Below, one piece after another: positions 36,743 to 42,217 of a stretch of 64,000 bases of DNA. The position numbers were made by a program, and so were the translations under genes. Source of the stretch: Pacificispira spongiicola (lineage in GTDB: Bacteria; Pseudomonadota; Alphaproteobacteria; UBA8366; Aestuariispiraceae). Position 1 is the stretch's first letter. Each line of letters opens with the position of its first letter. The stretch spans positions 248,001 to 312,000 of the forward strand of contig NZ_JABBNT010000004.1 in the NCBI RefSeq assembly GCF_012926505.1, read 5' to 3'. The notes under the pieces are model-generated. The model was not told the DNA's origin. It did not search any database and worked only from the letters and a program-made list of their open reading frames with translations.

Positions 36743-38155
36743 ATGCCGCTATCGAGAGCGACGGCCGTGGAGGCGCCGGCCCAGGAAGGGTCGCGCGATC
36801 CGGAATTCGGGCCCTGGCTGGCCCAGGCGTCCATCCTTATCGTCGATGACGAACCCGGGATGCGGAACTTTCTTGTCCGCACGCTGGGGCCGCGCTGCAA
36901 GCGACTGGAAGAAGCGTCCGACGCGGCGGAGGCATCCCGCAAACTGGACGAAGCGCATTACGACGTCGTCATTCTGGACAATATCATGCCGGGCAAGACC
37001 GGGGTCGAATGGTTGGCCGAACAGCGCCAGATCGGGTTTTTCGCTGACGCGATCCTGATGACCGCCTTCGCCGATCTGGATACGGCGATCCAGGCGTTGC
37101 GGGCGGGCGCCGTTGACTTCGTCCTGAAACCCTTCCGGTCGAACCAGATTTTGAACGCGGTCGCGCGGTGTCTGGACCGCATGCGGCTGCAACGCGAAAA
37201 CTACGTCCTGCGTCACGAGTTACGCGCCATGACGGACCATGTCATGTTGCGCGACAACCTGATCGGACGGTCGCCGCAGATCCAGGATGTCCGCGACATG
37301 ATCGCCCGCGTCGCGCCGCTGCCGACATCAGTCCTGATCACCGGCGAATCCGGAACGGGGAAGGAAGTCGCCGCGCGGTCCATCCACACCCTGTCCGACC
37401 GGGCGGAAAAACCCTTCGTCCCGGTCAATTGCGCGGCCATCCCGACCGATATGATCGAAGCCGAGCTGTTCGGTCATCTGAAAGGGGCGTTCACCGGAGC
37501 GGATACGGCACGGGACGGATTGTTCATGCATGCCCAGGGCGGGACCCTGTTCCTGGACGAAATCGGCGAATTGCCGATGACGACGCAGACCAAGCTGTTG
37601 CGCGCGATCGAGGACCGCAAGGTCCGCCCCGTCGGGTCCGAACGCGAGGTGCCGGTCAATCTGCGTTTCGTCTTCGCCACCAATGCGGATCTTGAGGAGG
37701 AGGTGGACGCGGGCCGATTCCGGGCCGACCTGTTCTACCGCATCAATGTGATGCGGATTCCCATGCCGCCCCTGCGCGCGCGGGGGGAGGATATCGTCGA
37801 CCTGGCGTCGCAATTCATGGATCGGCTGTCGCGGCAATTGGGCATGCCCGCCGTCCCCATCGACGCGGCGGTGGCGGAAGGTCTCGTCGCCTATGACTGG
37901 CCGGGCAATGTGCGCGAATTGCGCAACCTGATCGAACGGTCCCTGATCTTAGGCCGCTTCCCCGCCGAAGTTCGGGCGGAACGCGCCGACGAGGATGTCG
38001 AAGAATCGGACGGGCCGGATTCCTTGGCGGAGGTTGAACGGCGCCACATCATGGCGATCCTGCGGGAGACCGGTGGCAACAGGACGGAAGCGGCACGGCG
38101 GCTGGGCGTATCCCGCAAGACCATCGACCGGAAATGCGCGACCTGGAACCTGTGA
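36743..38155 (+). CDS. Sigma-54-dependent response regulator (NtrC/DctD type)
   Basis: A 470-residue enhancer-binding protein. Receiver domain with acidic pair D35/D36 and phospho-acceptor D79 (VVILDNIMP); AAA+ domain with Walker A GESGTGKE at 201-208, the sigma-54-contact loop GAFTGA at 248-253 and Walker B GGTLFLDEIGE at 266-276; C-terminal Fis-type HTH (NRTEAARRLGVSRKTIDRK). GGGGAGG lies 6 bases before the ATG. It overlaps the kinase gene by 22 bases. Its probable target is the OFA transporter gene downstream. Confidence 0.95.
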   Translation: MPLSRATAVEAPAQEGSRDPEFGPWLAQASILIVDDEPGMRNFLVRTLGPRCKRLEEASDAAEASRKLDEAHYDVVILDNIMPGKTGVEWLAEQRQIGFFADAILMTAFADLDTAIQALRAGAVDFVLKPFRSNQILNAVARCLDRMRLQRENYVLRHELRAMTDHVMLRDNLIGRSPQIQDVRDMIARVAPLPTSVLITGESGTGKEVAARSIHTLSDRAEKPFVPVNCAAIPTDMIEAELFGHLKGAFTGADTARDGLFMHAQGGTLFLDEIGELPMTTQTKLLRAIEDRKVRPVGSEREVPVNLRFVFATNADLEEEVDAGRFRADLFYRINVMRIPMPPLRARGEDIVDLASQFMDRLSRQLGMPAVPIDAAVAEGLVAYDWPGNVRELRNLIERSLILGRFPAEVRAERADEDVEESDGPDSLAEVERRHIMAILRETGGNRTEAARRLGVSRKTIDRKCATWNL

Positions 38156-40194
38156 CCCCCGACAGCACCGACGCCTTGAAAGGGGGCGAAGCGCCGCCCG
38201 TCCGACCGACGCGGTCGGTGCGGTATCGGCTGCTGGCCATCGCGCTGCTGCCGACACTCGTTATTCTGCCGTTGCTGCTCGGCATCACCATGGCGCGCTG
38301 GAACGCGAAATTCGATTCCCTGCTGATTTCGAAGGTCAACGGCGATCTGACCATCGCCCACCAGTATTTCGAACGGCTGCTGGAGCATGCCGGGACGGAA
38401 GTGCAGGCGCTGGGCGATTCCGCGCGCTTCCGCGATGCAGTGTATGGGCAGGCCGGTCCTCTGTCGTCGCTGATGGAGCTGAACCGACAGTCCCTGGGGT
38501 TGGATTTCCTCTTTGTCCTGGACGAAAACGGCAGTGTCGTTTCCGCTTCCCCCGCCGTGAGCGAGGCCGACCTGCGGCGGCGTTGGCCCGTGATCGACGC
38601 GGCGCTGCAGGGGAGATCGCGGACGGCGGTCGACATCTTCAGCGGCCCGGAATTGGAAGCCCTGTCCCCCGATCTGGCAGCGCGGGCACGGTTCGGCCTG
38701 ATCCCGACCCCCAACGCCGTGCCGACGGAACGCGACGTCGAGGATCGCGGCATGGTCGTCCATACCGCCAGTCCCATCGACTTGCCGGGCGGTGGGCGCG
38801 GGGCCTTGGTCGGTGGAATCCTGCTGAACCGAAACCTTGTGTTCATCGATACGATCAACGATCTCGTCTATCGGGAGGCCAGCTTGCCGGAAGGCAGTCA
38901 GGGCACGGCGACCCTGTTCCTGGACGATGTCCGCGTCAGCACCAATGTGCGCCTGTTCGAGAATCGACGGGCGCTGGGGACGCGGGTGTCGAGTATCGTG
39001 CGGTCCACCGTGTTGGACGAAGGCCGGGTCTGGCTGGACAGCGCCTTCGTGGTCAATGACTGGTATATCTCCGCCTATGAACCGATCCGCGACAGTTATG
39101 GCGAGCGGGTCGGCATGCTGTATGTCGGGTTTCTGGAAGCGCCGTTCCGGGAGGCCAAGACGGCGACGGTCCTGACGATCATCGCCGCTTTTCTGATCAT
39201 CACGGCGGCCAGTGTGCCGATCTTCCTGCGCTGGGCGCGGGGTATCTTCAAGCCGCTGGAAAACATGACCCGGACCATCGGTCGGGTAGAAGCTGGGGAT
39301 TTGAGCGCGCGGACCGGGGCGGTCGCGTCGCACGACGAAATCGGCCGAGTGGCCGGGCATCTGGACCTGTTGCTGGATCAGGTGCAGGAACGTGACAGCC
39401 AATTGCGGGCGTGGAACGAGGAATTGAACGCGCGGGTCGACGAACGTACCCGCGAGCTTCGCGATGCCAACCGCCAGTTGGAGGCGACGACCAAGCAGTT
39501 GATCATGTCCGAGAAACTGGCCGCGATCGGCGAAATCACGGCCGGGGTGGCCCATGAGATCAACAATCCGATCGCCGTGATCCAGGGCAATCTGGAGGTC
39601 GTGCGCGAACAACTGGGTGCGCAGGCCGATTCCGTGCGGACGGAAATCCAACTGATCGACGAACAGGTGCAGCGGATCAACCTGATTGTCCTGAAGCTGC
39701 TGCAATTCGCGAAGCCGGAGGAATATGCCGGTTATGTCGAACGCTACGAACCGGGCGGCGTCATCGCGGATTGCCTGCCCCTGGTGCAGCACCTGTTGAA
39801 CAAGTCGGAAATCGAGGTCCGGCAGACACGCAGCGAAACCCGACTTGTTCTGATGAACCGGACGGAACTGCAGCAGGTTCTGGTCAACCTGATCGTGAAT
39901 GCAATTCATGCCATGCCCGATGGCGGGACACTGACCTTGGTCAGTATGGACGCCGCGGGGCCAGGCGAGAGTCCGGGGGTGCGGATAGAAGTTGCGGACA
40001 CCGGCACCGGCATGGCGCCCGATGTCGTGGCGAAAATCTTCGATCCGTTCTTCACCACCAAGCGGCGGGAAGGGACCGGATTGGGCCTGTCGATCAGCCG
40101 GACCCTGATCGATCGGCAAGGCGGTCGGATCTCCGTCGAAAGCGAGCCCGGCAAGGGGACGCGCTTCACGATCTGGCTGCCGGAAGCGGATTGA
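38134..40194 (+). CDS. Membrane sensor histidine kinase with periplasmic Cache domain
   Basis: A 686-residue kinase partner of the preceding regulator. TM1 about residues 32-52, a large periplasmic region (about 55-345) of double-Cache character, TM2 about 347-367, HAMP and coiled coil to about 465, HisKA with H474 in GVAHEINNPIAV, then the ATPase domain: N box NLIVNAIHAMPDGG, G1 DTGTGMAPD, F box DPFFTTK, G2 GTGLGLSIS. The DctB-like periplasmic sensor should see a small organic acid directly. It ends 340 bases before the OFA transporter gene. Confidence 0.94.
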   Translation: MRDLEPVTPDSTDALKGGEAPPVRPTRSVRYRLLAIALLPTLVILPLLLGITMARWNAKFDSLLISKVNGDLTIAHQYFERLLEHAGTEVQALGDSARFRDAVYGQAGPLSSLMELNRQSLGLDFLFVLDENGSVVSASPAVSEADLRRRWPVIDAALQGRSRTAVDIFSGPELEALSPDLAARARFGLIPTPNAVPTERDVEDRGMVVHTASPIDLPGGGRGALVGGILLNRNLVFIDTINDLVYREASLPEGSQGTATLFLDDVRVSTNVRLFENRRALGTRVSSIVRSTVLDEGRVWLDSAFVVNDWYISAYEPIRDSYGERVGMLYVGFLEAPFREAKTATVLTIIAAFLIITAASVPIFLRWARGIFKPLENMTRTIGRVEAGDLSARTGAVASHDEIGRVAGHLDLLLDQVQERDSQLRAWNEELNARVDERTRELRDANRQLEATTKQLIMSEKLAAIGEITAGVAHEINNPIAVIQGNLEVVREQLGAQADSVRTEIQLIDEQVQRINLIVLKLLQFAKPEEYAGYVERYEPGGVIADCLPLVQHLLNKSEIEVRQTRSETRLVLMNRTELQQVLVNLIVNAIHAMPDGGTLTLVSMDAAGPGESPGVRIEVADTGTGMAPDVVAKIFDPFFTTKRREGTGLGLSISRTLIDRQGGRISVESEPGKGTRFTIWLPEAD

Positions 40195-40214
40195 TTTTCA
40201 CCGATTCCGATTTG

Positions 40215-40225
40215 GACAAAATGTC
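40215..40225. promoter_or_regulatory. Upstream activator site 1 (GACAAAATGTC)
   Basis: An 11-bp inverted repeat GACA-AAA-TGTC in the gap after the kinase gene. Its centre (40220) is 43 bases, about four helical turns, from the centre of site 2 (40263), so both lie on one DNA face as expected for dimers of an NtrC-type activator. Confidence 0.6.
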
Positions 40226-40252
40226 GCACTTGGCTGGATTTCCGTGTCGGAT

Positions 40253-40273
40253 ATCGGGACAAAATGTCCCGAT
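40253..40273. promoter_or_regulatory. Upstream activator site 2, extended 21-bp palindrome
   Basis: The core GACAAAATGTC (40258-40268) is extended to exact 9-bp arms around AAA. Five Ts start at its end (40273-40277), so in RNA it could also act as a terminator for the kinase transcript; the near copy at 40215 supports an operator role. Both may be true. Confidence 0.65.
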
Positions 40274-40325
40274 TTTTGCAATGCAACATATTGAAAATAC
40301 GGCATTTTTGTTGGTTTTCCGCGAC

Positions 40326-40340
40326 TGGCACAAGGCTTGA
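40326..40340 (+). promoter_or_regulatory. Sigma-54 (-24/-12)-like promoter of the OFA transporter gene
   Basis: TGGCAC-AAGGC-TTGA matches TGGCAC-N5-TTGC except for A instead of C at the last position. It lies about 63 and 106 bases downstream of the two palindrome centres, a normal distance for an enhancer-binding activator, and leaves a leader of about 180 bases before the ATG at 40535. Confidence 0.5.
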
Positions 40341-40534
40341 GTTGCTACCTCCATTCCGTCTCTTTCGCGGGGCGGAAATCCAAATGGGGGGACCTCCGAT
40401 TCATCGATGGCCTTAGCGGCTGTTTTCTCAAGCCGCGCGCAGTTCAGGCGGGGACGGATCGGATGACGTTCAACCAATAAGCGGGATCGGCGCGGACAAC
40501 GCCGCCGGTTCCATAAACGGGAGGAACGCTGAGT

Positions 40535-42217
40535 ATGTTCGATAGCCTGAAAAAGGAACATATCGTTGCGGGGGAAGGGTTTAACCGGTGGAAGGTTCCG
40601 CCGGCGTCGATCGCCATTCACCTCTGCATCGGCTCCGTCTATGCATGGAGCATCTTCAACCCGCCGCTGACGAAGGAATTCGGTATCGTCGCGGCATCGT
40701 CCGGCGACTGGAGCCTGTCGTCGGTCGTCTGGATCTTCTCCGTCGCCATCGTCTTCCTGGGGCTGGCCGCGGCCTTTGCCGGGAAATGGCTGGAAGAAGT
40801 CGGCCCGCGCATGGTCGGCGTCGTCGCCGGTTTGCTCTGGGGCGGCGGTTTCATCATCGGCGGCATCGGGATCGCCACGCATCAGCTTTGGCTGCTGTAT
40901 CTGGGATATGGCGTCTTCGGCGGCTGCGGTCTCGGCCTCGGCTACGTTTCGCCTGTTTCGACCTTGATCCGCTGGTTCCCGGACCGGCGCGGCATGGCGA
41001 CCGGCATGGCGATCATGGGCTTCGGCGGCGGCGCGATGATCGCGGCGCCGATCAAGGAAGCCCTGCTGGCCATGTTCTACAAGGCCCCTGATTTCCTGGG
41101 TCCGGAAGGCGCCGTCCAAATGGTGACCGAAGGCGGCAAGCGCATGGCGGAAGTCGGCGGTCAGATGGTCGAGGTCGTGGTGGCGAGCGCGGCGCAGGTC
41201 GCGGCGGCCCCGGTTCCGCTGCAGGAAGGCGTCTATGTCGTCGGTACCGGCAACACGGGCGCGTCCGCGACGTTCTTCACGCTGGGCATCGCTTACTTCA
41301 TCGTCATGATCGTCGCCGCCTTCTCCTACCGCGTTCCGGCGGCGGGTTGGAAGCCGGCCGGCTGGACCCCGCCGACGCAGGATCAGGCCGCGAAGCGCAT
41401 GATCACGCATAAGGACGTGCATATCGACCAAGCCCTGAAGACGCCGCAGTTCTACCTGTTGTGGATCGTGCTGTGCTTCAACGTGACGGCCGGGATCGGG
41501 GTGATCGGCGTCGCTAAGACGATGATGGGGGAAATCTTCGGCTCCACGCTGCCGTTGATCGTCAACTCGGCTTTTGCCGCGACCTATGTGTTGATGATTT
41601 CGGTCTTCAACATGGTGGGCCGCTTCTTCTGGGCCTCCACGTCGGACTTCATCGGACGGAAGAACACCTATCATATCTTCTTCGTCCTGGGCATCATCCT
41701 GTATCTGTCGATCCCGTTCGCGGCCCAGCAGGTCAGCGCCAATCCGGCGGTGACGTGGCTGGTCATGTTCTATGCCGCGACCATGATCATCTTCACAATG
41801 TATGGCGGTGGTTTCGCGACGATCCCGGCCTATCTGGCCGATATCTTCGGGACCAAGTTCGTGGGCGGTATCCATGGTCGTCTGTTGACGGCGTGGAGCA
41901 CGGCAGGCGTGCTGGGGCCGTTGGCCATCACGCAGTTGCGCGGCGCGTCCTTGACGTCGTCCATCCGCGATCTGGCCGATAAGGTCGACCCGGCGGCCTT
42001 CCAGGCGAAGTTCGGGGCGAGTATCGAACAGCTGGATACGCTGGTGGCGGCAAAGACCGTCACCGTCGCCCGGTTGATGGAGATCGCGCCCGCGGGCACG
42101 GTCGATCCGACGCCCAGCCTCTACAACACCACAATGTACGCCATGGCGGGCCTGCTGGTGATCGCGCTGTTCGCGAACATCTTGGTCAAGCCGGTGGACG
42201 ATAAACACCATATGTGA
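40535..42217 (+). CDS. OFA family MFS transporter (oxalate/formate antiporter-like), extended form
   Basis: A 560-residue major facilitator protein. The N-terminal SIAIHLCIGSVYAWSIFNPPLTKEFG and the GGCGLGLGYVSPVSTLIRWFPDRRGMATGMAIMGFGGGAMI segment are OFA hallmarks. It is well above the usual 400-430 residues because of a roughly 75-residue insert after about residue 172, before YVVGTGNTGASATFF, and a roughly 60-residue insert before the last TM (IRDLADKVDPAAFQAKFGAS...). GGGAGGA precedes the ATG. The substrate, probably a small mono- or dicarboxylate, should be the signal sensed by the adjacent kinase. Confidence 0.9.
   Translation: MFDSLKKEHIVAGEGFNRWKVPPASIAIHLCIGSVYAWSIFNPPLTKEFGIVAASSGDWSLSSVVWIFSVAIVFLGLAAAFAGKWLEEVGPRMVGVVAGLLWGGGFIIGGIGIATHQLWLLYLGYGVFGGCGLGLGYVSPVSTLIRWFPDRRGMATGMAIMGFGGGAMIAAPIKEALLAMFYKAPDFLGPEGAVQMVTEGGKRMAEVGGQMVEVVVASAAQVAAAPVPLQEGVYVVGTGNTGASATFFTLGIAYFIVMIVAAFSYRVPAAGWKPAGWTPPTQDQAAKRMITHKDVHIDQALKTPQFYLLWIVLCFNVTAGIGVIGVAKTMMGEIFGSTLPLIVNSAFAATYVLMISVFNMVGRFFWASTSDFIGRKNTYHIFFVLGIILYLSIPFAAQQVSANPAVTWLVMFYAATMIIFTMYGGGFATIPAYLADIFGTKFVGGIHGRLLTAWSTAGVLGPLAITQLRGASLTSSIRDLADKVDPAAFQAKFGASIEQLDTLVAAKTVTVARLMEIAPAGTVDPTPSLYNTTMYAMAGLLVIALFANILVKPVDDKHHM

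Follow-up and report, generated by a model that had tools for sequence, protein, structure and literature searches.

The region ahead of the OFA transporter gene in the window, by which we mean the whole 64,000-nucleotide stretch analysed here (Pacificispira spongiicola, assembly GCF_012926505.1, contig NZ_JABBNT010000004.1, positions 248,001 to 312,000 of the forward strand), is likely to be the regulatory region of that gene, and its sequence points to a classic sigma-54 enhancer promoter under the control of a formate-sensing two-component pair. In the mechanism that we propose, the kinase would sense a small carboxylate, most likely formate, and phosphorylate the adjacent NtrC-type regulator, which would then bind two palindromes four helical turns apart. 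IHF would bend the DNA between the palindromes and a -24/-12 box, and the GAFTGA loops of the regulator would remodel the waiting sigma-54 polymerase, leading to promoter opening. Transcription would start near position 40351, as judged from the box, and the transporter would be made once its substrate is present.

Inspection of the window confirmed the gene order given by the first-pass annotation, with a sigma-54 regulator and kinase pair followed by the OFA gene, all on the forward strand (36743-38155, 38134-40194 and 40535-42217, respectively). The proposed activator of the OFA gene is an NtrC-type response regulator with a receiver (PF00072), an AAA+ sigma-54 interaction domain (PF00158) and a Fis-type helix-turn-helix (PF02954); its start codon is the choice of the open reading frame tool and is uncertain. 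The GAFTGA loop lies within LFGHLKGAFTGADTARDGLF, and the Walker A and B motifs, arginine fingers and recognition helix could be read directly. The protein thereby shows the GAFTGA loop, receiver, Walker A/B motifs, arginine fingers and Fis-type helix-turn-helix of group 1 bEBPs. Its NCBIfam scores of 383 bits for AtoC, 372 for NtrC and 338 for ZraR reached none of the respective cut-offs (714, 559 and 760), and the best scores of the regulator and the kinase were those for AtoC and AtoS, under their cut-offs. With sigma-54 systems of the AtoSC/ZraSR class, the window shares a receiver-AAA+-Fis protein with GAFTGA, tandem upstream palindromes, an IHF-like site and a -24/-12 box. Unlike that class, its target is an OFA transporter and its sensor is an sCache_3_3 domain carrying a formate triad.

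Two palindromes, neither assigned a strand, are found downstream of the kinase gene as candidate activator sites. The distal palindrome, TGGACAAAATGTCGC, spans 40213-40227 (centre 40220), contains an exact GACAAAATGTC core at 40215-40225 and is conserved in orthologues. The proximal palindrome spans 40256-40270 (centre 40263) with an exact GACAAAATGTC core at 40258-40268, and it alone of the two is extended to GGGACAAAATGTCCC. The centres are 43 bp apart, and lie 63 (proximal) and 106 bp (distal) from the first T of the putative sigma-54 promoter TGGCACAAGGCTTGA (TGGCAC-N5-TTGA; 40326-40340, forward strand), which agrees with the consensus at nine of ten positions, the -12 element reading TTGA where the consensus has TTGC. 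Both palindromes, their spacing, their distances to the box and the box itself are placed exactly as had been claimed from the sequence alone.

Singly, these motifs are unremarkable in a 64-kb window, where we found 12 matches to the palindrome with up to two mismatches (13.4 expected) and three to the promoter motif with up to one mismatch (3.3 expected); the weight rests on their arrangement. The box had a p value of 0.010 in local resamples. By an independent-base estimate made once the pattern was known, 64 kb should contain about 2e-5 GACANNNTGTC pairs 42-43 bp apart, and from the sequence we judge that the arrangement of the palindromes is not due to chance. Among 385 genomes of the class to which the window belongs, five had such a pair. 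Two of these have it at a kinase-OFA locus, namely the window's own genome and one other (G278), and the 3 kb covered at each of the other three pair loci (L086-L088) gave no regulator, kinase or OFA match. The window's genome contains 22 GGACANNNTGTCC sites, and the proximal palindrome is the only one with an A/T-only centre; with no second pair among them, a wider regulon in this genome was rejected. The third exact GACAAAATGTC of the genome sits within open reading frames, and a motif scan of the window with up to two mismatches found no palindromes ahead of the regulator gene.

We then asked how these elements are distributed in related loci. An OFA-protein search of the genome collection returned 593 relatives, of which the best 80 were taken together with three loci of the window's family; 81 had a usable OFA start, L075 and L076 being excluded for a match incomplete at the start. 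With sites defined as GGACANNNTGTCC-type with at most one mismatch, at least two palindromes were present upstream of OFA in 15 of the 27 loci with a kinase or regulator nearby as against 0 of the 54 without, and at least one in 24 of 27 as against 1 of 54. The linked group of 27 takes in the partial loci L001-L003, the first of which is the window itself, as well as L011 and L012, in which the regulator/kinase pair is in divergent order. Kinase searches in four taxon groups gave matches in 83 of 394, 28 of 29, 22 of 87 and 44 of 397 genomes, and 140 more regions were selected from the match tables, rather than every match being taken. Regulator, kinase and OFA genes stood in this order in 80 non-redundant loci, comprising 55 with GAFTGA, 23 without it, and two that were set aside (L027, with GAFTNA and a 41-bp gap, and L232, whose loop could not be aligned). 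A kinase fragment (L056) and a duplicate of L181 on the same contig (L103) were dropped later. In this set a site was counted under a lenient definition (GGACANNNTGTCC with at most one mismatch, or with two mismatches and at least two A/T in the centre), and a -24/-12 box when at least eight of ten consensus positions matched.

All 55 GAFTGA-bearing loci carry at least one palindrome (52 of 55 at one mismatch) and 47 carry at least two. The box is present in 53 of the 55 and in none of the 23 GAFTGA-less loci, where the best match was seven of ten positions. The first-pass annotation had proposed a search for the motif before OFA genes of relatives, naming lack of conservation as grounds for rejection; the palindromes proved conserved, and its enhancer-driven promoter layout is supported by these counts and by the absence of pairs at the 54 loci lacking the kinase pair. 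The same counts bear on a different explanation, that the palindromes serve some other regulator, or act as operators for the repression of a sigma-70 promoter, with the TGGCAC box a coincidence. The role of the palindromes is read from sequence, and the box by itself is no more than chance would give in 64 kb; yet among the best 80 of 593 OFA relatives and the three added loci no palindrome pair stands at a locus that lacks the kinase pair, and the box accompanies GAFTGA with two exceptions in 55 and is missing from all 23 loci that lack the loop. We regard this explanation as highly improbable, and RpoN-dependent activation by the adjacent regulator as the preferred one.

The two exceptions, L009 (Granulosicoccaceae) and L022 (a Piscirickettsiaceae MAG), have GAFTGA and palindromes yet no good -24/-12 box; their promoter may be divergent or sited elsewhere. 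The search for rpoN was positive for all 55 GAFTGA-bearing genomes and for 16 of the 23 that lack GAFTGA. The window's genome (G000) has two rpoN genes, at C13:95034-95510 and C14:20699-21178, in frames of 516 and 437 aa, of which one could serve a particular group of activators only. The commonest palindrome spacing is 42-43 bp in GAFTGA-bearing and GAFTGA-less loci alike, and in L117, L195, L207 and L209-L213 the palindromes are 22-24 bp (two turns) apart, and 59-61 bp separate the nearer one from the promoter. Distances from site to promoter cluster at 59-63, 74 and 83-86 bp, which are not clean multiples of 10.5. Strict helical phasing, suggested by 10.5-bp multiples in the first loci, was rejected on 52 distances (the duplicate L103 included; L198 and L199, with the nearest site at 248 bp, left out), for which the fit was moderate at 10.5 (R 0.51) and rose further at 12, the upper end of the periods examined.

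The available text of PMC7962754 describes IHF as commonly placed between activator and promoter. At this position the window has an IHF-like site, CAACATATTGAAA (40284-40296, reverse strand), with one mismatch to YAANNNNTTGATW, that may be bound by IHF. Scored against WATCAANNNNTTR at this position, it has one mismatch and a shuffle p value of 0.05, which applies to this locus alone; the consensus used was that printed in the accessible part of PMC5963220. An IhfA-type protein is encoded in the window's genome. Of the 53 promoter-bearing loci, 19 have an IHF-like site with no more than one mismatch and 34, many Thalassospira among these, do not; in the 19 its distance to the TGG is 30-31 bp in 13, 42 bp in the window and 53 bp in five. 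The first-pass annotation had missed this site, as well as a clade, described below, that keeps the palindromes without a recognisable sigma-54 promoter.

The kinase consists of an sCache_3_3 sensor (PF17202, E 1.9e-27), HAMP (PF00672), HisKA (PF00512) and HATPase (PF02518) domains, with membrane segments recognised by eye only. In the available text of PMC12501870, changes at R142, T145 and T158 of the formate chemoreceptor PacF affect formate binding, and in that of PMC12415202 one sCache_3_3 receptor carrying the reported residues bound formate. The sensor of the window kinase has R267, T270 and T283 (38932-38934, 38941-38943 and 38980-38982, forward strand) at a spacing (+3, +16) identical to that of the PacF triad as described there. 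All 80 OFA-linked kinases carry the triad unchanged, as do all 86 family kinases without OFA in the fetched span, and it is therefore not a marker of OFA control. An AlphaFold2 model of the sensor (residues 28-350, pLDDT 84) fits 8py0_B with Z 15.7 and 2.2 A over 151 residues, and 8py1_B with Z 15.3 and 2.4 A over 136 residues. Both entries are titled formate complexes and are the lowest-rmsd fits among the entries listed, where other Cache domains had similar Z with rmsd of at least 3.4 A. Foldseek E-values rank 8py0 and 8py1 26th and lower, with 8py1 aligned there at 9.7 A, and the sequence-only match of the sensor to the formate receptors is weak (E 0.003 and 0.026). The window kinase thus has triad spacing and sensor fold in common with PacF, as far as the available text describes it, and with the 8py0 (Oscillibacter) and 8py1 (Asticcacaulis) receptors, but those are chemoreceptors and this sensor is part of a histidine kinase. 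Taken together, sequence and model suggest that the kinase probably senses formate.

Of 166 non-redundant kinase loci, 86 had no OFA in the fetched span; 10 of these are near formate dehydrogenase relatives, and 44 had no matching regulator upstream in the span. Six of the non-OFA loci (L131, L157, L158, L159, L214 and L216) have palindromes downstream, with no OFA match found there.

The OFA-family MFS transporter (PF07690) received as its best NCBIfam label the SfMCT L-lactate transporter (NF049980), narrowly passing the cut-off with 329.6 bits against 320, with 560 aa as against the 378 positions of that model; it fell under the cut-offs of TIGR00890 and TIGR04259. It belongs to the same transporter family as SfMCT and the oxalate-formate antiporters. 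The label, together with the transport of L-lactate by the solved homologue SfMCT (as reported in the available text of PMC6573034), favours a reading in which the architecture is unchanged and L-lactate, or alternatively pyruvate or some other monocarboxylate, is at once signal and substrate. Against it stand the invariant formate triad of the kinase, the formate-bound receptors as lowest-rmsd fits among those listed, and the recurrence of formate dehydrogenase genes beside OFA, in a neighbour search that was aimed at formate genes and not at lactate genes. Among the best 80 of 593 OFA loci, 24 have formate dehydrogenase relatives (E up to 1e-15) in the vicinity of OFA, and formate dehydrogenase adjoins OFA in 10 of the 21 regulator-kinase-OFA loci with flanks covered, six of these ten having LysR-fdsGBA after OFA. 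We consider L-lactate unlikely, while it is the main rival to formate, and from the sequence the transported acid is probably formate (or formate/oxalate). The proposal of the first-pass annotation that the kinase senses the transported acid has gained in plausibility, with formate the likely acid. Against formate, the formate dehydrogenase alpha gene of the window's own genome is on another contig. In L010, L014, L015 and L019, OFA without the kinase pair has formate dehydrogenase genes of the fds type in its vicinity (FdsA identity 70-83%), and the link between OFA and formate is therefore wider than the regulator.

The 23 loci without GAFTGA showed a different promoter. A regulator tree built with the loop columns left out needs one GAFTGA change (SH-aLRT 90, and 96 for the clade without L074), and independent losses were rejected on this ground. 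As the joint loss is one event with many descendants, the Fisher p value of 6e-18 overstates the evidence. By the lenient definition, 21 of the 23 loci have at least one palindrome, 16 at least two, and 10 a third, the last falling to only 2 of 23 at one mismatch or fewer; the recognition helix of the regulator is also kept across the clade. Since the clade keeps palindromes without a recognisable sigma-54 promoter, palindromes alone do not imply RpoN. A search for rpoN found none in seven of the 23 genomes (L021, L023, L040, L064, L116, L123 and L160), an absence that is not proof because L021, L023, L040 and L064 are shotgun records. Celeribacter persicus and Gemmobacter lutimaris are among the clade members for which rpoN was not found. 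IhfA-type proteins were found in 11 of 11 genomes checked, including those seven.

Alignment of the 23 regions revealed two common blocks after the palindromes, YAANNNNTTGATW and then TTGAC(A). The former is the IHF consensus, as printed in the accessible part of PMC5963220, read on the other strand, and 17 of the 23 regions match it with one mismatch or none; TTGAC(A) follows the best IHF-like match by 26-30 bp in 20 of 23, by unrestricted search. If the base ahead of TGG is included, the -24 box in 13 GAFTGA-bearing loci begins 29-30 bp downstream of where the IHF-like site begins, and TTGACA starts at this same offset in most GAFTGA-less loci. In L195, L209, L210 and L215 the -24 box reads TTGGCA, one transition from TTGACA. 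These sequences suggest one in-place change in the clade from sigma-54 to another polymerase, probably with sigma-70, which the same regulator would presumably drive from the TTGACA at the former -24 box. The full course would be that GAFTGA was lost once and that a single G-to-A change, from TTGGCA to TTGACA, made the -24 box into a -35 box without altering its distance to the IHF-like site, with palindromes and IHF-like site kept and a third palindrome present in some loci, rpoN then becoming losable in some lineages; this we put forward tentatively, as a proposition slightly short of evenly balanced.

A search of the 23 regions for a -10 box after TTGACA found no consensus. The want of a clear -10 box would also be expected if regulator and promoter were losing function together with no change of polymerase, as would the altered Walker-B DE pair of 14 and the altered second arginine finger of 4 of the 23 GAFTGA-less regulators, neither change being seen in any of the 55 GAFTGA-bearing ones. 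Such decay sits poorly with a deep clade that has kept the palindromes in 21 of 23 loci, their spacing, the IHF-like site in 17 of 23 and the recognition helix, and with TTGAC at a near-fixed offset in 20 of 23, and we think it rather unlikely. In-place conversion is the reading that we prefer. Among known systems, Rhodobacter capsulatus HupR is an NtrC-like activator that works with IHF at the sigma-70 promoter of hupSL; there hydrogenase is controlled, whereas the target here is OFA. A precedent is Rhodobacter capsulatus NtrC, which has no GAFTGA and is reported to act with sigma-70, and GAFTGA is also absent from NtrC of other Rhodobacterales and of Caulobacter (PMC10274813, available text). 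The 23-locus clade resembles the R. capsulatus NtrC type in that GAFTGA is absent, sites are retained in 21 of 23 and the -24/-12 box is found in 0 of 23, and continued regulation after loss of the loop, as described for these NtrC proteins in that text, is what we propose for it. It differs from them in regulator, sensor and target, in that the loss can be followed at a single orthologous promoter where palindromes and IHF-like site persist, and in that rpoN did not turn up in seven of the 23 genomes.

Individual members of the clade deserve mention. The earliest branch, L074 (Acuticoccus mangrovi), has the loop GALPHS, still has rpoN and carries GTGACG at the TTGACA position in a restricted search; it is possibly an intermediate state. 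An inverted repeat like GGCATGC-N4-GCATGCC lies downstream of TTGACA in L021, L040, L045, L057, L125, L023 and L123, and is possibly the site of a second regulator or an RNA hairpin. The record of L040 is titled Enemella evansiae, which we take to be an actinobacterium; its regulator groups with the GAFTGA-less alphaproteobacterial clade and its genome falls in the family of that of L021, and the record name may be wrong.

As a sigma-54 promoter the region ahead of OFA adds a member to a known type, of which the GAFTGA-less relatives, keeping the enhancer without a recognisable sigma-54 promoter, are a variant. What the window adds is a specific, testable connection between one sensor pair and one transporter, together with a histidine kinase that is a candidate responder to formate, of a kind for which we found no description in the accessible portions of the open-access literature searched. 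The related loci amount to a natural experiment on the passage of a sigma-54 activator to a mode of action that no longer needs sigma-54. We know of no account of how the promoters of GAFTGA-less NtrC proteins arose; here the same regulator family, DNA sites and target occur with and without GAFTGA, the -24/-12 box and rpoN, so that the states before and after can be compared at one promoter.
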